60,879 nucleotides of DNA from Candidatus Desulfaltia sp. (GTDB taxonomy: Bacteria > Desulfobacterota > Desulfobacteria > Desulfobacterales > ETH-SRB1). Positions 34,514 through 45,518 of the stretch are shown here, in pieces. The DNA lies in NCBI GenBank assembly GCA_030656555.1, contig JAUSPN010000032.1, forward strand, positions 1-60,879. Direction: 5' to 3'. The notes beneath the pieces were generated by a model that was not told where the DNA came from, ran no database searches, and was given only the letters and a program-made list of their open reading frames with translations. The first letter of the stretch is position 1. Each line of letters begins with the position of its first letter. The position numbers and the translations under genes are program-made.

Positions 34514-35956
34514 TTAGAATCCATTTTTTGATTTGTTTCTATAGGAAATAGCGTTTTGAACCAGAGCATCTGCCCAGTAAGGTGTGCCTAATGCATGTAT
34601 ATGTGTATATGTCGCCAGCACGTTTTTATAACAAACACCGTCATTTTTATTAATAAAGCCTGCCCCCCTTTTCATGGAAAAAACCAGGTCATTGTCAGTC
34701 CCTGTCCATTCTAAAACCTTGGAATAGTGAAATTCATGGCCTCTGATTTCAGTGCCGACTTTAAAATAGGGGTTTTCTCTTTTGACTTTTATAATTGTAT
34801 ATCCATGCCCCTGAGGCCTTTTGGAAAATCCGAAAATAACAGGTAAAACATCTGCCATTGGATATGATTTTCCGTCAAGAACAAGCTCCTTTCCGAGATA
34901 CATCAACCCACCGCATTCAGCATATATTGGAAGTCCGTCTTCAGCCAATGATTTTAATTGTTGTTTGAATGCAACCTTTTCAGCCAGTTCTTTTGCATGG
35001 GTTTCAGGGAATCCGCCTCCAATATATATGGCATCTACAGGTGGAATTGTGCTGTCGGAAAAAGGACTGATAAATACAATCTCGGCACCTAATGAAATAA
35101 GAGCCTCAATATTTTCCGGATAGTAGAACTGGAATGCTGAATCCCTGACTATGCCAATCCTTGGCGTTGGTTGCCGGTCGCCGGTTGCCGGTTGCTGGTC
35201 GCCGGTTGCCGGTTGCTGGTCGCTGGATGATGTGGCGGCTTGATTTGCGATTTTCTCTATTGCGGACAGGTCAAGATACTGCGATGCTGTTTGAGAAGCA
35301 GCGGCAATTGAATCTTTTGCCCAACCGTGCTCAGGCATTGGCACGAGACCCATATGGCGTTCCGGAAAACTCTGCTTGTCCAGTTTCGGTACAGCCCCTA
35401 ATACAGGCACACCACAGTACTGTTCTATGCTTTTGCGAATTATATTTTCATGCCTTGACCCGGCGATACGGTTTAATATAACCCCGCTTATCTTAACATC
35501 AGGATCAAACTGCATGCAGCCGAAAACAACCGCAGCCATAGTTCTTGTGGTTTTTGTGCAGTCAATACACAAAACAACAGGGGCGTTAAGCAGCTTAGCA
35601 AGCTCCGCGGTGCTGGTGCTTCCTTCAATATTTAAGCCATCATAAAGCCCTCGGTTGCCTTCTATAACTGCGATATCTTTGTTTATGGAATGTGAAAGAA
35701 ATGAATTAAGGATTTGCTCTTCTTTTATCATGAAGGTGTCTAAATTATAGCAGGGTCTGCCGGCTGCCAGCGCGAGCCAGCCAGCATCAATATAATCAGG
35801 ACCTTTTTTGAAAGGAGCCACTTTTTTCCCAAGATCAGTCCATGCGGCAATAATCCCAATCGATAGTATGGTTTTTCCCGCTCCTCCCCGCAAAGCTGTA
35901 ATAATAATTCTGGGAATATCCATATATTTTAATCCACAGACCCGCCTGCCATGCAT
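34514..35956 (-). CDS. dsrN: CobB/CbiA-type glutamine amidotransferase (DsrN-like)
   Basis: The 480 residues have an N-terminal ATPase (ALRGGAGKTILSIGI about 18-32, KGPDYIDAGW, VIEGNRGLYDG) and a C-terminal type 1 glutaminase with catalytic Cys in AECGGLMYLG and His in GHEFHYSK. This is cobyrinate a,c-diamide synthase. Lying directly after dsrABD it fits DsrN, thought to amidate sirohaem for sulfite reductase; a cobalamin role cannot be excluded, so the symbol rests on context. The start may be ATG 35923, directly before the ATPase fold. A 7-residue tandem repeat fills the linker between the two domains. Confidence 0.85.
   Translation of the reverse strand: MHGRRVCGLKYMDIPRIIITALRGGAGKTILSIGIIAAWTDLGKKVAPFKKGPDYIDAGWLALAAGRPCYNLDTFMIKEEQILNSFLSHSINKDIAVIEGNRGLYDGLNIEGSTSTAELAKLLNAPVVLCIDCTKTTRTMAAVVFGCMQFDPDVKISGVILNRIAGSRHENIIRKSIEQYCGVPVLGAVPKLDKQSFPERHMGLVPMPEHGWAKDSIAAASQTASQYLDLSAIEKIANQAATSSSDQQPATGDQQPATGDRQPTPRIGIVRDSAFQFYYPENIEALISLGAEIVFISPFSDSTIPPVDAIYIGGGFPETHAKELAEKVAFKQQLKSLAEDGLPIYAECGGLMYLGKELVLDGKSYPMADVLPVIFGFSKRPQGHGYTIIKVKRENPYFKVGTEIRGHEFHYSKVLEWTGTDNDLVFSMKRGAGFINKNDGVCYKNVLATYTHIHALGTPYWADALVQNAISYRNKSKNGF
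35169..35224. repeat. 21-bp tandem repeat inside the DsrN/CbiA linker
   Basis: Two 21-bp units (35183-35203, 35204-35224; GGTTGCCGGTTGCTGGTCGC plus one base, one mismatch) and a 14-bp partial unit (35169-35182). In the coding strand each gives seven residues (GDQQPAT), so changes in copy number keep the frame. Confidence 0.9.
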
Positions 35957-36232: not shown

Positions 36233-36472
36233 TTAGTCTTCGCCTTCGCCGTGAGCCTGTTTTCCGGCCCCTTTAAGCCCATACATTGACGTGCTTCCGC
36301 TTGACCAGTATTCAAGGACTCCGTCTTCTATCATCTTGTTAATAAACTGCTTCGCGGCTCTGGGCTTTTCATCAAGTATTTTAGCGAGATCGTTGAAATA
36401 AAATTTTGATTTTGTTTTTGATTTCTTTTCCAGCTCTTCAACAATTTTCTTGGTTGCTTCAGCTTGATCCAT
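36233..36472 (-). CDS. dsrD: Dissimilatory sulfite reductase-associated protein DsrD
   Basis: The 79 residues form a compact winged helix (KSKTKSKFYFNDLAKIL, PRAAKQFINKMIEDGVLEYWSSGST). DsrD is an allosteric activator of sulfite reduction by DsrAB and marks reductive, not oxidative, dsr systems. This is the best single indicator that the host reduces sulfate or sulfite. ATG is preceded by AAGGGGC. It directly follows dsrB. Confidence 0.96.
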   Translation of the reverse strand: MDQAEATKKIVEELEKKSKTKSKFYFNDLAKILDEKPRAAKQFINKMIEDGVLEYWSSGSTSMYGLKGAGKQAHGEGED

Positions 36473-36539: not shown

Positions 36540-37685
36540 TTAGAACTTAAAGTTTGTTGTCTGACGCCATGTATAATAGGCAGGATCGCGGAAATCATCG
36601 ATAAGATGATGGGTAAATTCAAGTTCGCATTTCTCAAAGAATCTTTCCCATCCGATCCTTTCTGCCCACTGGCCGAGACGTTCATACTTATTGGCGTCTT
36701 TTGAGTAAGCATCTATCATTCTCTTTATTGTAGCGGTCATGGTAGGCCAGCGAGGCTGTTCGTTTTTAATATAGGCCACAACCACCTTGGAGAATTTCGG
36801 CGCGTCTTTCCTGTTGGAAATTTTACCGCCGGCCATTAGCACTATTCCGTCGCCTTCAGTATCAGCAAGAGGCATGGATGGGCACATTGTGTAGCAGTTG
36901 CCGCAATACATGCACTTTTCCTCTCTGACTGAAACAGTTTTCAGTTCTTTGCCGCCTATCTCAATCTTGGTCGGCTTGATTGCCGCGGTAGGACATGCGG
37001 CAATAGCCAGAGGAATTTCGCACATCTTGTCGATATATTCATGATCGATCATCGGCGGTTTGCGGTGATAGCCTAAAATCGCGATATCAGAGCAATGGAC
37101 CGCGCCGCACATGTTCAGGCAGCAGGCCATGGATACGCGAAGTTTTGCAGGGAGCTTCATGTCGGTAAATTGATCAAAGAGCACATCCATGGTAGCTTTT
37201 ACAGTTCCTGATGCGTCGGTTGCCGGTGTGTGGCAGTGAATCCATCCCTGTGTGTGCACGATATTGGTAACACCTGCGCCGGTTCCGCCAATGGGAAATT
37301 TGTAACTCCCGCCAGCGAACTTCCTGCTCAGAAGATCCTCCTTCATAGGCTTTACGTTCTCTTCTTTATCCGTCATGAACTCGATGTTATTCCTGGTCGT
37401 AAACCTTAAGTATCCATCACAATATTTGTTTGCGATTTCATTAATTTCACGTATATGGGTTACGCTCATTAAACGACATCCACCTACTCTAACAGTATAA
37501 ACTTTGTCGCCTGATTCTGCGACATGGACCAGAATGCCTGGCTCAAGAATTTCATGATACAGCCATTTACCCTTGTTTTTTGCAATAACAGGAGGGTAAA
37601 ATTCATCAAATTTTCTCGGACCGATGTCGGTTATTCTGTTTTCCATCGGTTTTTTTGGATTGTATCCTGATGATATAAATGCCAT
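36540..37685 (-). CDS. dsrB: Dissimilatory sulfite reductase subunit beta
   Basis: Partner of DsrA in the cytoplasmic alpha2beta2 enzyme that reduces sulfite on sirohaem-[4Fe-4S] centres, with transfer to DsrC. It shows the sirohaem/cluster ligands in [14 protein letters not shown] and a ferredoxin insert [12 protein letters not shown] with the remote CP in [10 protein letters not shown]. Although the frame is open to 37760, AGGAGGGG lies eight bases before ATG 37685 ([10 protein letters not shown]), the family start; this gives 381 residues. It starts just after dsrA. Confidence 0.97.
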
Positions 37686-37698
37686 GATTATTCCCCTC

Positions 37699-39015
37699 CT
37701 ATCTTTGATGAAATTTTCTAAATTCGTTAATATCACGCTTAAATCCGCCAGGAACCTCATCTTCTTTCCAGAAGATGTACGGATTGGACCGTGGTTCCCG
37801 AATCATTCGCGGATCTGCTTTAAAACCGGTTACCTCGAGTATCTTCTGAAAACCTTCGCGTTTGAGTAATTCGCCAAGACGCTCGCGGTTTTTGCCTTCT
37901 TCCATCCACCAATCCCAAATAGGCTCAATTACTGTTTCCTTGATTTCAGTATAAGGTTCTTCAATCTTGATAAAAGGAACAAGAAGTGTGGCCATTTGCG
38001 CGCCATCAAGAATAGGGGCCTTGGCGCCGACCAGAAGAGAGGCGCCTTTGTCATTGCCAACTCTGAGGGCTCTCGGCATGACATTAATACAATGCATACA
38101 CCTTGTGCATTCAGGTGTGTTGATTTCAAGCTTTCCATCTTCATACCGCATACATTTTGTGGGGCAAAGATCTATAACCTCTTTTTGAATATCAAACGGA
38201 CCCCAGTCGCGACCTGCATGAGCTCCGGCATTTGGCGGAAATTCTCCACCGATATATGCCTTAACGGCTTTCTGGTCGATGCGTATATCATCCCGCCATG
38301 TGCCGATAAAGGAAAGGTCTGATCGCGCAATAGATGCCACACAGCAGTTAGGACATCCGTCAAACTTGAATTTAAATTTATATGGAAATGCCGGACGATG
38401 AAGCTCATCCTGGTATTCATTGGTAAGATCATGGCATATCGCCTGTGTGTCATAACATGCAAATTCACAACGCGAAGAGCCGAGACAGTCGGAAGGAGTA
38501 CGCAGGTTTGACCCGGAGCCCCCCAGATCCTGGTTCAGGTTATGTCCCAGTTCCCAGAAGACCTCTTCGAGTTGAGGCGTTGTTGTTCCAAGAAAAATAA
38601 TATCTCCTGTTGCGCCATGCATGTTTGTAAGACCGCTCCCGCGGCGTTCCCAAAGATCGCAAAGATCTTCAAGATATTTAGCGGTATAATACTTGCCAGC
38701 GGGCTGGCTTACACGCATTGTATGGAAATGCGCAACGCCCGGGAACATTTGAGGCTGATCAACATATCTTCCGATAACTCCGCCTCCATAACCAAATACA
38801 CCTACGATTCCACCGTGTTTCCAGTGAGTCCTGCCGTGCTTATAGGATAATTCAACCACGCCCAAAAGGTCATCACAACAATCCTGCGGGATCTGGTATT
38901 CAATATTTCTCTCATTCTTTGCCCTTGATTCAGCCTCCTGCTTCAGGTCGGACACGAAACTCGGCCATGGCCCGCTTTCAAGCTGGTCTAAAAAAGGGGT
39001 TTCATGTTTTGCCAT
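37699..39015 (-). CDS. dsrA: Dissimilatory sulfite reductase subunit alpha
   Basis: The 438-residue alpha subunit: N-terminal [20 protein letters not shown], sirohaem-[4Fe-4S] ligands [11 protein letters not shown] and GCPNCCVAS, and the ferredoxin domain [11 protein letters not shown]...[12 protein letters not shown]. The complete ligand set suggests an active enzyme. AGGTAAT stands before ATG. First gene of the dsrABD group, with a 310-bp gap upstream that probably holds its promoter. Confidence 0.98.
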
Positions 39016-39325: not shown

Positions 39326-40621
39326 TTACTGCCTGGTTACGACATCGAAAAGAATCTTTGCATGTTTCTTTATATTCTGCCTTATCACAGGGATTTCAGG
39401 CGCTAATGGATTGTATGAATCAACAATAGCTAATGATAAATCATAAAAATCCTTCTCAGTACAGGATGATAATAGATAATCATGAAAATAAGTATCAAAA
39501 GAATCAGAAAACAAACCGGTTGAATCTTTCCGGCGCAAACCCTGAAAAAAACCTTTCAGGGTTCCTTGAACGGCAATATCGTCAGACCACACAATATCGC
39601 CGACCCCATCTATCCTGTCGAGCCGCATCCTGATTGAAAGATTTAATAAAAATACCAGCATCGCCTCCAGTATCATTTCAACATTTTTGCCTGTATCTTC
39701 ATCCTCTTCTTTTTTTGCAAACATGGGCGCATATTGCCTGACTGTTATAAGCTTTAATTGAAGCTCCCCGCAGCAAGCTGCGGGGAATCTTCGACCGTAA
39801 GGAAGTTTGCTATTTTCAGATTCGCTCGCAAACCCCGCAGCAAGCTGCGGAGAATGCGCTCTCTTTTGCGGTTCAGCCTTATTATTTTGCAGCCTTATAA
39901 CAAAGTCTCCGGCAGCATGATGCCAGGGAAATATCTGCTCAAAGGATTCAATATTATAATAACCGGTCAAAATCATGGCTGCCTGCCTGTAAAGTTCCAG
40001 GGTATTATCAGGAGAAAGAAAATAGTTGCCCTTCTCAGAATCCCAGACTAATATTTTGTACTTATTGTCTGTCTTATCCTGGGAAATATGAAACTCGTTA
40101 AAACCTTCAAACCATTCACCCAGAAACATGCTCATCATATGCCTGCTTTTTTTGACACGAGTTTCTCCATAGCCATAAACCTCTGGAATAAATGAAAACG
40201 AAAAATCATTCCCCAGCCTTTTAAGACAGATGTATTCTCTTTCGATACCATCCCTGCCTGCAGCGGATATTGCAACATTTAAGACAAATTTATAACTTTC
40301 TTTATTCAAAATAGCTTCAACTAAGGAAGGATGATAAAATTCTCCGTGTTTTACCAGGCAAACTCGAATTTCTTCGATTTCTTCAGGAATTATCTGACGA
40401 TTTATGCTTTTAGAAAAGGCGGAAATCAGGATTTTAAATCTGTTTTGTTCCAGAAAGGAACGGACTGCGGAAAAATAATCATTGTATGTTATTGAAAGGG
40501 AACACTCTTCCGGTGGCTGCCGCCTGCTCATGGGAAGGGGAACCGTCCAGATCCTGCTGTTTTTCTTTATTAGATTGTCTAATCGGTAAAGAAAATACTT
40601 GAATTGAGGTTTATTGGGCAT
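39326..40621 (-). CDS. Unrecognised 431-residue protein, possibly kinase-fold
   Basis: I cannot name the family. The order of motifs loosely recalls aminoglycoside-phosphotransferase/protein-kinase folds: FVLNVAISAAGRDGIEREY then LKRLG (about 110-145) as an N-lobe, FIPEVYGYGE, a hinge-like MFLGEWFEGFNEFHIS, and WHHAAGDFVIR (about 238) where a catalytic HxD loop would lie. That is a weak inference, as no clear metal-binding DFG is seen. A repeat insertion (about residues 254-287) is coded in frame. It lies 134 bases after the TPR gene and 310 before dsrA, all on one strand. Confidence 0.7.
   Translation of the reverse strand: MPNKPQFKYFLYRLDNLIKKNSRIWTVPLPMSRRQPPEECSLSITYNDYFSAVRSFLEQNRFKILISAFSKSINRQIIPEEIEEIRVCLVKHGEFYHPSLVEAILNKESYKFVLNVAISAAGRDGIEREYICLKRLGNDFSFSFIPEVYGYGETRVKKSRHMMSMFLGEWFEGFNEFHISQDKTDNKYKILVWDSEKGNYFLSPDNTLELYRQAAMILTGYYNIESFEQIFPWHHAAGDFVIRLQNNKAEPQKRAHSPQLAAGFASESENSKLPYGRRFPAACCGELQLKLITVRQYAPMFAKKEEDEDTGKNVEMILEAMLVFLLNLSIRMRLDRIDGVGDIVWSDDIAVQGTLKGFFQGLRRKDSTGLFSDSFDTYFHDYLLSSCTEKDFYDLSLAIVDSYNPLAPEIPVIRQNIKKHAKILFDVVTRQ
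39766..39881. repeat. Palindromic repeat inserted in frame in the 431-residue gene
   Basis: Two copies of CCCCGCAGCAAGCTGCGGGG (perfect 9-bp stem; 39766-39785, and 39833-39852 with one change) flank GACCGTAAGGAAGTTTGCT...AGATTCGCTC. In the minus frame the block encodes a Ser/Ala/Arg-rich, Cys-containing stretch (AHSPQLAAGFASESENSKLP, then YGRRFPAACC). The same element, without its hairpins, lies at 7159-7208. Confidence 0.8.
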
Positions 40622-40639
40622 TTTTGGTTAAGCAAATTC

Positions 40640-40738
40640 AGCCACAGCCCCACGCAGGCAGTCACCAGACATGATAAAGAAAACTGTGTTGCCTGGCCCC
40701 GTAAGTCAGGATGATCGTACTGGGGTGTGTCTGTGGCT
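40640..40738. repeat. Long hairpin between the TPR and 431-residue genes
   Basis: AGCCACAGCCCCAC (40640-40653) pairs with GGGGTGTGTCTGTGGCT (40722-40738). On the minus strand it would fold in the leader of the 431-residue gene. It could be a dispersed palindrome or a transcript structure; no T-run supports a terminator. Confidence 0.5.
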
Positions 40739-40755
40739 AAAAAATAATAACTTGA

Positions 40756-41376
40756 TTACCGGTGTGTTTCTATCTCTTTCAAAATTTCAGGGGCTACTTT
40801 ATAACCAAGACTAATCGCTTTATCACAATGCTTGACAGCCATGTCATATTCCTCATTTTCAAGATATGCTATTGTGAGGTTATTGTGTGCGACAGCAAAG
40901 TTTGGCTCCAGCTTCAGGACTTTAAGATTTGTTATAATACTCTCTTTAACTAACCCTTTCATCAAATAAGCATTTGCCAATGTAGCATAAGCCTGCAAGA
41001 ATTTGGAATTATATACAATAGCCTTTTGAAGCGATGTAATGGCTTCGTCAACATTCCCCATCTGAAGATGCACAAAACCTATATTTCCATAACCTTCAGA
41101 AAATCCAGCCCTTACCTTGGTCGCATGTTTGTTGTATTCAAGACAACCGTCAAGGTCGTCCCGCTGCAAGCAAAGCCCGCCTAACTGTACAAATGCTTCA
41201 GCAAGATTTGGGCTGCAATCGATTGCGGCATGAAGCTCATTTTCAGCTTCCTCATATTCTTTAATGCCCAGAAGGGCAACAGCAAGGTTGTAATGGGTCG
41301 TGCCGCATTCAGAATTTGAAGCTATTGCAGATCGCAGGTTAGCAATATATTCTTTCGCATTTTTTGCTTTTTGCAT
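40756..41376 (-). CDS. TPR repeat protein
   Basis: The 206 residues carry about five tetratricopeptide repeats (for example AHYNLAVALLGIKEYEEAEN-type units beginning at about residues 22, 56, 90, 124 and 158, each with the W/L-G-Y-A-P spacing: NLAEAFVQLGGLCLQRDDLD, FSEGYGNIGFVHLQMGNVDE). No signal peptide is seen, so it should be a cytoplasmic scaffold. E. coli YcaO has a TPR region fused at its C-terminus; here the TPR gene follows the ycaO-like gene, suggesting a separate but equivalent partner. Confidence 0.9.
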   Translation of the reverse strand: MQKAKNAKEYIANLRSAIASNSECGTTHYNLAVALLGIKEYEEAENELHAAIDCSPNLAEAFVQLGGLCLQRDDLDGCLEYNKHATKVRAGFSEGYGNIGFVHLQMGNVDEAITSLQKAIVYNSKFLQAYATLANAYLMKGLVKESIITNLKVLKLEPNFAVAHNNLTIAYLENEEYDMAVKHCDKAISLGYKVAPEILKEIETHR

Positions 41377-41426
41377 AATTATATCCTTAATAAAGTTACA
41401 AGTGAGCTAAATTGCCTAAAGTGAGT

Positions 41427-41469
41427 CCCGCCAATTATAGGCGGGATTGAGAAATGCGCCTTTGGCGCA
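41427..41469. repeat. Two short palindromes in the YcaO-TPR gap
   Basis: CCCGCC AATTATA GGCGGG (41427-41445) and TGCGCCTTTGGCGCA (41455-41469). The rest of the gap is AT-rich. Confidence 0.5.
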
Positions 41470-41568
41470 AACAATTTTGACTTTAACTTAAATTGAGTGA
41501 TTTTTCAAAGGTCTCAATGAGTATCAATTAATTTTTTTTAGCTATTATGATGTCATCCTGATGTCAAG

Positions 41569-41591
41569 AAAAAACGGAAGCCAACGGCTTC
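41569..41591 (-). terminator. Rho-independent terminator after the YcaO gene
   Basis: On the minus strand GAAGCC GTT GGCTTC (41591-41577) is followed by CG and TTTTTT (41574-41569). The stem begins at the stop codon, so transcripts of the YcaO gene may largely end here and the TPR gene may have its own promoter. Confidence 0.7.
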
Positions 41592-42904
41592 TATACAAAA
41601 AAACTCTGCATTATCTTCCTGAACCTTGCTCCACGCCATGCAGAAGAGGGTCTTGTTGCTTCAGATACGAGAATGTCTTGATTCAAGAAAGGTAAAAAGT
41701 CAGAAATCCGTGGAATAATTACTCTTATTACCGGAAAGTTCAATATTGGATGGGTGTGGTCGAGTATTATGCAATCGGTATTGAACAGTTTACATATTCT
41801 CTTGATTTCCTCAATCTCGCCAAAAATATCCTTGATTTTACCGTTCCTGTAAGCGCCAACTTCGCCTTGCTCAAGAAATGAGATATCTTTTGGAGAAATA
41901 CCACATTTCATTAACAGGTAATAATTGTTAACCTGAGATCGATGGACAACCGGTTTGTCCAACTGTGGACGTGGAGCCAGTAGAGTTTCACGGCCCTGCA
42001 TGCTTTCCGTAAAACACCTTGTCAAGCCTTCGTCCGGATTGAAAGATGCGCCCGGTATCAGTATTCTATGTTCCAGTCGATCAGGAGGCAAATTGTGGTT
42101 GATGAACAGGACGCCTACGCAGGGCAACAGTCCATCAAGGGAAAGATCCTTGATTATTACATCAACGTTCTTTTTCTGATAAAAGTTAATCATATCCTTT
42201 ATGACGCCATTGTCCACAGAATCCAGATCAATTGATGGAACAGTTTTTTCAGGTTTAATTATTTGTATTTGGACATGACGTTCAAATATTTCACATAAAG
42301 CCTGAATCATCGCCTCTTCGATGGTATTTCCTGCCGCCATCCCGTTAGAAGCATGAATATATGCAACAAAATTGATTGGAATTTTTACTGTCTCTTCATG
42401 AACTATTGAAAAACCATCAACCCAATGTTTAGCCATGTGGCTGTTTTTGATATGCTCAATGTCCTTATCCGTTAAATGACTTTCGTTTGCCAGCAGGTCT
42501 TCTATTCTTAAAACATTTTCTTTCAAATCATCCTGATGGGCATGCACATATCCCTCCCTCCATTCAAAATTAAGGAACCTGTTGGTCTCCTCATTATAAA
42601 GGGCCGGGATGTTAAACCTCACCCGTTCTTCAAAGACCGGATAGAAAAGCCCCGCGCTGAAACGTTCAGCCAGCTCTGCGTATGCACTGGCCTCCGCAAG
42701 CTCCGGGGTAATGCCTTTTCCATTACAGACTATCCTTATTGAATCAATCCATATCCGCCCCCAATAGATGTTGTCAGATACTCGAAAGCCGGAGTATTCA
42801 ACATCGAGATTCAATTTTCGTAACCCGTCCTTTATTCTGCTAATCGTATTGGACGGAAGATCACACTTGCCATACTTGTTTCTGACACAATTCTGAAATT
42901 CCAT
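41591..42904 (-). CDS. YcaO-domain ATP-dependent backbone-modifying enzyme homologue
   Basis: YcaO enzymes activate peptide backbone amides with ATP, giving azolines, thioamides or amidines; E. coli YcaO acts with RimO in S12 methylthiolation. The 437 residues show the ATP-site pattern: ASAYAELAERFSAG (Sx3E and ExxE, about residues 77-90), and AMIQALCEIFERHVQ (ExxxR, about 205-219). The C-terminus has no PxPxP, the mark of azoline-forming members, so thioamidation or an S12-type role is more likely. No precursor peptide or TfuA gene lies nearby. The setting beside dsr suggests a sulfur-related task, by inference. Confidence 0.9.
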   Translation of the reverse strand: MEFQNCVRNKYGKCDLPSNTISRIKDGLRKLNLDVEYSGFRVSDNIYWGRIWIDSIRIVCNGKGITPELAEASAYAELAERFSAGLFYPVFEERVRFNIPALYNEETNRFLNFEWREGYVHAHQDDLKENVLRIEDLLANESHLTDKDIEHIKNSHMAKHWVDGFSIVHEETVKIPINFVAYIHASNGMAAGNTIEEAMIQALCEIFERHVQIQIIKPEKTVPSIDLDSVDNGVIKDMINFYQKKNVDVIIKDLSLDGLLPCVGVLFINHNLPPDRLEHRILIPGASFNPDEGLTRCFTESMQGRETLLAPRPQLDKPVVHRSQVNNYYLLMKCGISPKDISFLEQGEVGAYRNGKIKDIFGEIEEIKRICKLFNTDCIILDHTHPILNFPVIRVIIPRISDFLPFLNQDILVSEATRPSSAWRGARFRKIMQSFFV

Positions 42905-42949
42905 TAAAACTGTTACTCCTCACCAGGATGATTAAATTTATTATATACT

Positions 42950-43093
42950 ATGAAAATTTATACCACATCAACCATTCAATACACAAGATATAAACGAGGT
43001 AAAGTTCGAGGCCAATTACCGGTGGCAACATCACTTCCGATTGAATATCCGCTGTATCAAATATCCGAAACAGCGAGAAGATTCTTGACATAG
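42950..43093 (+). CDS. Possible 47-residue protein
   Basis: An open frame begins ATG at 42950 (MKIYTTSTIQYTRYKRGKVR) and ends ...PIEYPLYQISETARRFLT. The composition is protein-like and basic, but no RBS is seen. The next promoter overlaps its stop. I do not recognise it; it may be chance. Confidence 0.3.
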   Translation: MKIYTTSTIQYTRYKRGKVRGQLPVATSLPIEYPLYQISETARRFLT

Positions 43094-43217: not shown

Positions 43218-43550
43218 ATGGCGGATTTTTACATTAATATTTTTTTAGATGCTGAAAAACTAAAGAAAATTGAAGGAGCGGGATTGTCCAGTGAGGTTAA
43301 GGAAATAAACGGCAAAAAGGCGATTCAGGTGGAAGTCTCAAAAAAAGAGCAAAAAAAGCTTCTAAAGGGATTCCCGGATTTAACCTTTGACGATTTAAAT
43401 GCCTGTGTGCTCCCTGAAAAAGGAGAAAATATCCTGCTGAACATTATACTGGATATAAAGATGGTGGATGTAATGAAAGTAGCGATTATAAAGCTTTACA
43501 ACCCTCTTGCTGGCAGGGATATTTCCGGAAGGGGCACCGGCGGCAGATAA
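43218..43550 (+). CDS. Unrecognised 110-residue protein
   Basis: No family is recognised. The protein begins MADFYINIFLDAEKLKKIEG and has alternating short beta and charged helical segments (KAIQVEVSKKEQKKLL; ENILLNIILDIKMVDVMKVAI), with a Gly/Arg tail (DISGRGTGGR). It has no signal or TM segment. The start is strong (ACAGGAGG, seven bases). It is 14 bases from the DapA-like gene and shares its promoter, so a partnership is possible. Confidence 0.75.
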   Translation: MADFYINIFLDAEKLKKIEGAGLSSEVKEINGKKAIQVEVSKKEQKKLLKGFPDLTFDDLNACVLPEKGENILLNIILDIKMVDVMKVAIIKLYNPLAGRDISGRGTGGR

Positions 43551-44696: not shown

Positions 44697-45518
44697 TCAT
44701 GAAGTTTTTCTTGCAACTCCAGCGTTTTTATTCATTTCAAACTGATCTTCGCTTGCCTTCTTAAAAAGAAGCGATTTTAACCAGTTAATCCCAAATTCCA
44801 GCCGGGCGATTTCATCTTCTTTTATTTTTTCCACAGTTTCACTGTCAATTTTATATCGATCCAGAAATGAACTCTCAAAAATAAATTTTTTAAATTTATC
44901 AGTGTTATAACTTACTAAAAAAAACATCTTCTTGCTCTGTTCCGTTAACATTACATTCTTCGGAAAGGATCTCTTTCTGACGATCAGGTCTGTCCAGCCG
45001 GCGTTTATTTCGTCATGAATATCAACCCCCTGATCCTTGCGCCATTCACGAACTGTCCATTCCTTATCCTCTTCAAAACCAAGGCAATGAGGTTCGTGAA
45101 CAAAAAAATAGAATCCTTCATCGTCAGCTCCTTCTTTGTGGCTGAGTGAAGCGACACCAAGCGGATAATAGCGGCATGTGGTGGGCCTGTCTTCATAAAT
45201 GATACATCCATCTTCTCTGACAAAAGGGCATTTCTTTTTATCAGACTCAGATGCGTCATCATCTAAAAGCTTTAAAGTGATTATCGGCAGATCTGTTTTT
45301 TCTAAAAGCTGCGGCTCTGTATAAATGGCTAAAAACTCTTCTGATGAAAGTTGCAGACGATTTTTTAGCCTGATAATGTCATAGGGTGTCAGTATAATAT
45401 TAATATCCCCGCAACATTTGGTAAAACATTTTATCCTTTTATGACATTTGAATTTAAATCTGCTGTCAAGTGAAAGTTTGACCGGTTCTATGCTGGCCGT
45501 TGTATTGGGTATGTCCAT
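44697..45518 (-). CDS. YkgJ-family Fe-S/zinc cluster protein
   Basis: The 273 residues contain the CxCxCC-type cluster of this family: KFKCHKRIKCFTKCCGDINI (Cys about 24-35), then KCPFVREDGCIIYEDRPTTCRYYPLG (about 96-120). The helical C-terminal part, with LARLEFGINWLKSLLF near its end, is not recognised. Role unknown; metal binding is the only safe inference. Confidence 0.88.
   Translation of the reverse strand: MDIPNTTASIEPVKLSLDSRFKFKCHKRIKCFTKCCGDINIILTPYDIIRLKNRLQLSSEEFLAIYTEPQLLEKTDLPIITLKLLDDDASESDKKKCPFVREDGCIIYEDRPTTCRYYPLGVASLSHKEGADDEGFYFFVHEPHCLGFEEDKEWTVREWRKDQGVDIHDEINAGWTDLIVRKRSFPKNVMLTEQSKKMFFLVSYNTDKFKKFIFESSFLDRYKIDSETVEKIKEDEIARLEFGINWLKSLLFKKASEDQFEMNKNAGVARKTS

Follow-up and report, generated by a model that had tools for sequence, protein, structure and literature searches.

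The sulfite reductase DsrAB catalyzes the step that yields most biological sulfide. In sulfate reducers, dsrD, dsrN, and dsrT are linked to dsrAB and have been connected with the activation of DsrAB or the amidation of siroheme, and to our knowledge little has been learned about how DsrAB is built and tuned beyond siroheme amidation (DsrN) and activation (DsrD). Among described YcaO enzymes, the Escherichia coli protein is the uL16 Met82 thioamide synthetase, and its dimerization is mediated by its TPR region (PMC13063428). For the YcaO that thioamidates McrA, TfuA is not obligatory (PMC5589413). In Desulfovibrio vulgaris, loss of the YcaO-TPR fusion DVU2210, which belongs to a different subfamily from the YcaO considered here, led to molybdate resistance in a sat mutant, and the protein was dispensable for sulfate respiration (PMC7774982).

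The window analyzed here, a 60,879-nucleotide stretch of Candidatus Desulfaltia sp. (contig JAUSPN010000032.1), carries on its minus strand a ycaO gene (41591..42904, 437 aa), a gene for a TPR protein (40756..41376, 206 aa), and a gene for a protein of an unnamed family, here called UNK (39326..40621, 431 aa), which lies directly upstream of dsrA (37699..39015; TIGR02064, 597 bits, above the cutoff). These are followed on the same strand by dsrB (36540..37685; TIGR02066, 487 bits, above the cutoff), dsrD (36233..36472; PF08679, 5.7e-29), and a candidate dsrN-type siroheme amidase gene (34514..35956; CbiA plus GATase_3). The start of dsrB was placed at MAFISS; a longer open reading frame starts at 37760. 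A CxxCxxCC protein (PF03692) is encoded at 44697..45518 on the minus strand, and the divergent neighbor of ycaO/TPR encodes a DUF6955 protein (PF22271; 43218..43550, plus strand). The co-directional gene order described in a first-pass annotation held; the annotation also gave a terminator after ycaO that might separate the transcripts. A terminator-like hairpin, GAAGCCGTTGGCTTC then CGTTTTTTCT (41577..41591, minus strand), abuts the ycaO stop, and ycaO is probably its own transcript; sites of this type were no more common in the window than in shuffled sequences.

A survey of related genomes showed that the three genes are not one unit and that the stable part is TPR plus UNK, two genes that are conserved as a unit and tied to dsrAB. 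Several lines of evidence were apparent. First, of 80 Desulfobacterales loci, about 75 had TPR adjoining UNK; the gap was at most 30 nt in 34 of 74 loci, and its median in relatives was 33 nt. Second, the distances of UNK, TPR, and DsrA were correlated (r, 0.71 to 0.90). Third, among 296 genomes of the phylum, UNK was found in 47 and dsrA in 146, and both were found in 46 (Fisher P = 3e-15); G142 was the sole genome with UNK but without dsrA, and the complete relatives G028 and G031 had neither. Finally, 31 of the 46 genomes had UNK no more than 10 kb from dsrA, in four relative placements, which means that the linkage was kept through rearrangement; in the remaining 15, UNK was away from dsrA or the contig was too short to tell. 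The pair is directly upstream of dsrAB in Desulfobacterales, and in other lineages it is still beside dsrAB in a different arrangement (downstream of dsrB or convergent). A PF03692 CxxCxxCC protein was encoded near TPR/UNK in 43 loci, and in a second arrangement a different PF03692 protein directly adjoined TPR, so that PF03692 was next to TPR in both. The pairing with dsrAB is too consistent for chance, and the TPR/UNK pair therefore probably helps DsrAB to be built, modified, or controlled. No description of the pair beside dsrAB was found in the literature outside subscription journals.

The functional tie to dsrAB proposed in the first-pass annotation was thus borne out by co-occurrence and linkage. 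The broader expectation that all three genes follow dsr-bearing genomes stood in part: TPR and UNK are almost confined to dsrA genomes (46/47), but they are missing from most of these, and ycaO is scattered. About two-thirds of the dsrA genomes in the phylum were without UNK, which means that DsrAB can mature without it; one genome (G408) has YcaO-TPR-dsrAB with UNK missing there. Two other ideas about the pair were dropped. Apparent UNK-TPR fusions in G238 and G298 (frames of 605 to 632 aa) had no TPR signal and were merely long stop-to-stop frames, and a derivation of the TPR protein from the TPR part of a fused YcaO found no special kinship (24% identity over part of the length).

UNK had no match to any Pfam or NCBIfam family in profile searches and is a new protein family, with a predicted protein-kinase-like fold and an apparently noncanonical, strongly conserved pocket. 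Its family motifs are KHGxFYHP, WFxGxxEFH, PWHHAAGDF, LITVRxY, and RxRLDRxDGxG. The AlphaFold2 model (pLDDT, 89.8) was a two-lobed kinase fold whose matches among solved structures were N-acetylhexosamine kinase (Z = 13.7), choline kinase (11.8), and Rio1 (11.2), in agreement with an earlier guess of a kinase fold. All of 120 homologues were invariant at G93, W170, E176, H178, W193, W233, G238, D239, R257, and D296, among others, and K91 was nearly invariant. The places of the beta-3 Lys, the HxD Asp, and the DFG Asp appear to be taken by N115, H234, and T255, as read from the order of secondary structures rather than from an inspected superposition; in an alternative register, D239 may be the catalytic Asp. 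A FolB-like N terminus was considered and set aside, as PF02152 matched only 6 of 69 members (best E value, 0.003; against the PDB, 0.22). The UNK gene of the window also contains an in-frame 116-bp palindromic dispersed repeat (39757..39872, minus strand) with 40 matches in the genome; this copy supplies 37 to 39 of the 431 residues, compared to homologues of about 390 to 400 aa, and the insertion falls at a beta-hairpin turn of the model.

YcaO itself is a standalone, nonazoline YcaO. It matched PF02624 with 182 bits (gathering cutoff, 25.7; 2.8e-53), and the motifs S73xxxE77, E77xxE80, E205xxE208, and E205xxxR209 were located, invariant in a ten-member alignment, and PxPxP was not found in the protein or in the C-terminal alignment, as the first reading of the gene had it. 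Likewise, the earlier argument against a RiPP stood, since neither a peptide nor a shared neighbor pointed to one; no precursor peptide or E1-like partner was recognized among the ycaO neighbors, in a search that was less than exhaustive for very short ORFs. The sequence ends after the YcaO domain with no TPR in cis, and its pI is 5.91 (range, 5.3 to 6.1). Scores were below the cutoffs of NF040716 (E. coli type, uL16/S12; 115.8 bits against 700) and TIGR03266 (McrA thioamidating; 79 bits against 365), and the nearest solved structures were MJ1094 (80 bits) and E. coli YcaO (79 bits). TfuA (PF07812) was not found in the genome, which encodes RimO and a second YcaO with TPR in cis (L001, contig C99; 576 aa, 28% identical to the YcaO of the window).

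The ycaO gene is an optional, laterally mobile passenger at TPR/UNK/dsr loci. A good example of this is the ycaO cassette of the window (41580..43015, minus strand), which is 92.5% identical in DNA to that of another genus (G010), compared to 68 to 77% for all flanks; this means that the cassette moved between genera on its own. An initial impression that ycaO always lies beside dsr (3 of 3) was weakened by the order-wide survey: of the 44 genomes in which its position could be resolved, 21, from six families, had ycaO beside TPR/UNK/dsr, and the other 23 copies were unlinked to dsr and had no common neighbor. Most UNK genomes had no ycaO. Sequence comparison of DsrA and DsrB found no residue marking ycaO-bearing genomes. 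The C-terminal GRGTGGR tail of the DUF6955 protein was rejected as a YcaO substrate, being missing in a ycaO-bearing genome (L215) and present without ycaO nearby. It is possible, though somewhat unlikely, that ycaO serves another process, either the modification of a ribosomal protein, like the thioamidation of uL16 by E. coli YcaO (PMC13063428), or another client, and that it reached the dsr genes by neighborhood drift near an easily reached locus. The 23 copies away from dsr, the single-gene transfer, and the presence of RimO are consistent with this. However, the linkage recurs in six families and several arrangements, and both the pI (5.3 to 6.1, compared to a very acidic 4.4 for the uL16 enzyme) and the NF040716 score (116 bits) argue against a ribosomal role.

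The properties of UNK allow two further readings. A regulatory role is rather unlikely: the kinase-like pocket of UNK would serve as a sensor for a nucleotide or a metabolite of sulfur, and UNK would, via TPR, switch DsrAB activity or dsr expression on or off. The place upstream of dsrA, where accessory and regulatory genes are frequent, the strong conservation of a ligand pocket that seems to lack the canonical kinase residues, and the patchy presence of UNK, which suits a condition-specific role, all fit. However, there is no DNA-binding or receiver domain, other lineages have the pair downstream of dsrB or convergent, and the frequent metal-binding PF03692 partner suits cofactor handling better. 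Activity of UNK as an atypical kinase or nucleotidyl transferase on DsrAB, DsrC, or a cofactor precursor is less probable again; the predicted fold is near small-molecule kinases, and invariant D239, D296, and R257 with nearly invariant K91 could make a different active site, but N115, H234, and T255 in the secondary-structure order appear to stand in place of the usual catalytic residues. Least likely of these, and abandoned as the core of the locus, is the split YcaO/TPR enzyme of the first-pass annotation, with UNK as third partner modifying a Dsr protein: the adjacency of ycaO and TPR in the window and in L195 (dsrA-dsrB-ycaO-TPR, gap of about 60 nt) and the dimerizing TPR region of E. coli YcaO (PMC13063428) speak for it, but TPR is constantly partnered by UNK and dsrAB in dozens of genomes without window-type ycaO, ycaO is transferred alone and unlinked in 23 genomes, a terminator-like hairpin separates it from TPR, and the genome already has L001.

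The preferred reading, to which we give a probability of roughly 0.4, is that TPR and UNK are a lineage-specific DsrAB accessory module for biogenesis or quality control, with YcaO as an optional, separate, ATP-dependent backbone-modifying enzyme of some lineages. Newly made DsrA or DsrB, or subunits not yet fully loaded, would be held by the TPR protein, and UNK would bind a ligand or nucleotide in its remodeled ATP-site region, this binding driving assembly, siroheme/4Fe-4S cofactor loading, or quality control of DsrAB; the CxxCxxCC metal-binding protein would be a frequent third member. YcaO, probably separately transcribed, would phosphorylate a backbone amide of DsrAB or of another TPR-held client and swap oxygen for sulfur, using sulfide made by DsrAB. 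By analogy with characterized YcaOs, conversion of a backbone amide to a thioamide is the most likely reaction. The more specific proposal is a long shot: dsr-linked YcaO in some sulfate reducers would sulfurize a DsrAB backbone amide near the siroheme, and the TPR/kinase-fold pair would present the substrate to it. As the pair tracks dsrAB through several rearrangements, it offers a handle on how DsrAB is built and tuned. The locus also suggests searching Dsr proteins for backbone modifications; the uL16 thioamide was overlooked for decades because its mass shift resembles oxidation (PMC13063428).

Compared to known systems, the TPR/UNK pair resembles dsrD, dsrN, and dsrT in being linked to dsrAB in sulfate reducers, whereas its distribution is much narrower. 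TPR and UNK were absent among the Dsr proteins named in the consulted passages of a survey (PMC10504309). UNK resembles the protein-kinase-like superfamily (N-acetylhexosamine kinase, choline kinase, Rio1) in predicted fold, but it has no significant sequence match to it, and the canonical catalytic residues are apparently replaced. The combination of YcaO and TPR in a sulfate reducer recalls DVU2210, whose apparent relative here is the separate L001 and not the YcaO of the window. The latter is similar to E. coli YcaO across the whole YcaO domain (79 bits) and shares the absence of PxPxP and of an obvious peptide precursor; however, the E. coli protein has TPR in cis and a pI of 4.4, whereas this one has no TPR, a pI of 5.9, and a score far under the NF040716 cutoff. 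Like the McrA-thioamidating YcaO (MJ1094; Methanosarcina acetivorans YcaO-TfuA), it is standalone, has no precursor peptide, and in some genomes has its gene close to those for a tetrapyrrole-dependent key enzyme of anaerobic metabolism; unlike it, it is bacterial, lies beside dsrAB rather than mcr, and occurs in a genome without TfuA. If YcaO does act on DsrAB, DsrAB would join McrA and uL16 among the very few thioamidated proteins. Should the more specific proposal of sulfurization near the siroheme hold, a third system of protein-backbone thioamides would stand beside those of MCR and of uL16 in the ribosome, and both of the great tetrapyrrole enzymes, one of anaerobic sulfur metabolism and one of anaerobic methane metabolism, would carry this rare modification.

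Directly upstream of dsrA, all three genes claimed by the first-pass annotation were found on the minus strand: a standalone ycaO (41591-42904; 437 aa), a TPR gene (40756-41376; 206 aa), and the gene for an unnamed 431-aa protein, here called UNK (39326-40621). They are followed on that strand by dsrA, dsrB, dsrD, and a dsrN-type gene, in a complete-looking genome of 2.73 Mb, which its nearest relatives place with Candidatus Desulfaltia and Eth-SRB1 (Desulfobacterales). The protein sequence and alignment bore out the intact ATP/Mg motifs of YcaO and its lack of PxPxP, and the terminator proposed after ycaO corresponds to a terminator-like hairpin immediately 3′ of it. UNK had been described as an unrecognised family, and its sequence indeed gave no significant family match in Pfam, NCBIfam, or the PDB.

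The expected association of the trio with dsr held for TPR and UNK, though with a restricted distribution. Among 296 evenly drawn genomes of the phylum, with dsrA counted above the curated cut-off, UNK was found in 47 and dsrA in 146, and 46 of the 47 UNK genomes have dsrA (Fisher p 3e-15, treating genomes as independent and ignoring kinship). The sole genome with UNK but no dsrA match (G142, locus L200) is 99% complete. UNK lay ≤10 kb from dsrA in 31 of the 46 genomes having both: upstream on the same strand in 10, downstream and facing dsrAB in 16, divergent in 4, and downstream on the same strand in 1. A second arrangement has the order dsrA-dsrB-TPR-(PF03692 protein) with UNK facing them. 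Because the linkage is preserved through such rearrangements, the sequence comparison speaks for shared function rather than inherited order. The protein distances of UNK, TPR, and DsrA also correlate (r 0.71 to 0.90). What did not hold was generality: UNK is absent from 100 of the 146 dsrA genomes and is therefore a lineage-specific addition, not a general requirement.

Within its lineage the arrangement is well conserved. UNK is nearly general among 58 relatives, TPR is immediately upstream of it in nearly all 40 loci examined, and dsrA is directly downstream in 28 of these, most others stopping at a contig border. When 84,980 species genomes were scanned, 310 encoded relatives emerged. The best 80 are all named as Desulfobacterales, as deltaproteobacteria, or by an equivalent older name, apart from one on a 3-kb contig binned as Delongbacteria, and the order TPR-UNK-dsrA-dsrB recurs in their neighbourhoods. 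Since the TPR-UNK gap is short (median 33 nt; ≤30 nt in 34 of 74), the two genes are probably one transcript. A CxxCxxCC protein (PF03692, "putative zinc- or iron-chelating"; 44697-45518, minus strand, in the window) occurs near TPR/UNK in 43 window-type loci. A different PF03692 protein (L195:9549-10196) directly adjoins TPR in the second main arrangement, its gene beginning a few nucleotides after TPR. Such a companion fits cofactor handling and proves nothing. DUF6955 (PF22271) is a frequent divergent neighbour of the locus; in the window its gene (43218-43550, plus strand) adjoins ycaO and TPR. It occurs in 57 of the 296 genomes, and also a few kilobases from dsrA in genomes without UNK (G093, G127, G153, and G213).

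The kinase fold suspected for UNK was supported by an AlphaFold2 model built from an alignment of 69 homologues (mean pLDDT 89.8). The best structural matches of this predicted kinase-like fold were N-acetylhexosamine 1-kinase (Z 13.7), choline kinase (11.8), and Rio1 (11.2), and many protein kinases also matched. Assigned by secondary-structure order (Eth-SRB1 numbering), the positions of the catalytic Lys, HxD Asp, and DFG Asp hold N115, H234, and T255; in a second register, D239 may be the catalytic Asp. G93, W170, E176, H178, W193, W233, G238, D239, R257, D296, and G300 are identical in 120 of 120 aligned sequences, and K91 is conserved in 119. This conserved predicted pocket suggests that UNK binds a ligand or carries out an unusual reaction rather than serving only as a scaffold. 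About 37 to 39 of the 431 residues, at a β-hairpin turn, come from a 116-bp palindromic repeat that is read in frame (39757-39872; two CCCCGCAGCTTGCTGCGGGG-type palindromes; 40 matches in the genome), and homologues are ∼390 to 400 aa long. Further copies lie inside long open frames in this and same-genus genomes.

By analogy, we infer that TPR and UNK would act jointly on DsrAB, in its biogenesis, cofactor loading, or quality control; a regulatory role for the pair is a serious rival. No paper describing the pair beside dsrAB was found in the literature searched.

The link of ycaO to dsr is recurrent yet optional. With all surveys pooled and counted by hand, and linkage taken as a distance of ≤6 kb from TPR, UNK, or dsrA, the window-type subfamily was found in 55 genomes: linked in 21 (six families), elsewhere in 23, and not callable because of contig ends in 11. 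Two of the 23 are ∼20 kb from dsrAB, apparently on the same contig, and the unlinked copies compared have no general neighbour in common. Besides the window order, ycaO-TPR-UNK-dsrAB, we found dsrAB-ycaO-TPR (G254), ycaO-TPR-dsrA-dsrB with no UNK at the locus (G408, L319), ycaO downstream of dsrAB (G508), and ycaO divergent from TPR (family f41). In G008, ycaO is directly upstream of dsrA with TPR-UNK on another contig, and in G016 a C-terminal UNK remnant separates ycaO from dsrAB, with full UNK on another contig (loci L224 in G008, L226 in G016, L046, and L044). Between the window and genus g3, DNA identity reaches 92.5% across the ycaO cassette (41580-43015; dS 0.2 to 0.3) compared to 68 to 77% for the flanking genes (dS 1.2 to 3.2); being far closer than its flanks, ycaO therefore moves as a single gene. 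A YcaO client unrelated to dsr is also a serious rival.

By analogy, YcaO would activate a backbone amide and add sulfide. The enzyme belongs to a standalone subfamily (nine other aligned members, 61 to 95% identical) and fell below the cut-off of every curated function-specific model in a profile comparison. TfuA was searched for and is absent from the genome, RimO is present, and thioamidation in methanogens does not strictly require TfuA (PMC5589413). A second YcaO away from the locus (L001; 576 aa) carries C-terminal TPR in cis, and most relatives have proteins in the same length class. Its ATP-binding motif resembles that of Desulfovibrio vulgaris DVU2210, which is dispensable for sulfate respiration and whose loss in a sat mutant gives molybdate resistance (PMC7774982). 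The solved structures nearest to the window YcaO are methanogen MJ1094 (80 bits) and Escherichia coli YcaO (79 bits). The latter thioamidates ribosomal protein uL16 and dimerises through its TPR region (PMC13063428), and is more acidic than the window enzyme (pI 4.4 versus 5.9). Protein-acting YcaO enzymes are a known kind, as are accessory genes at the dsr locus; what is new is that the two occur together with a new kinase-fold family.
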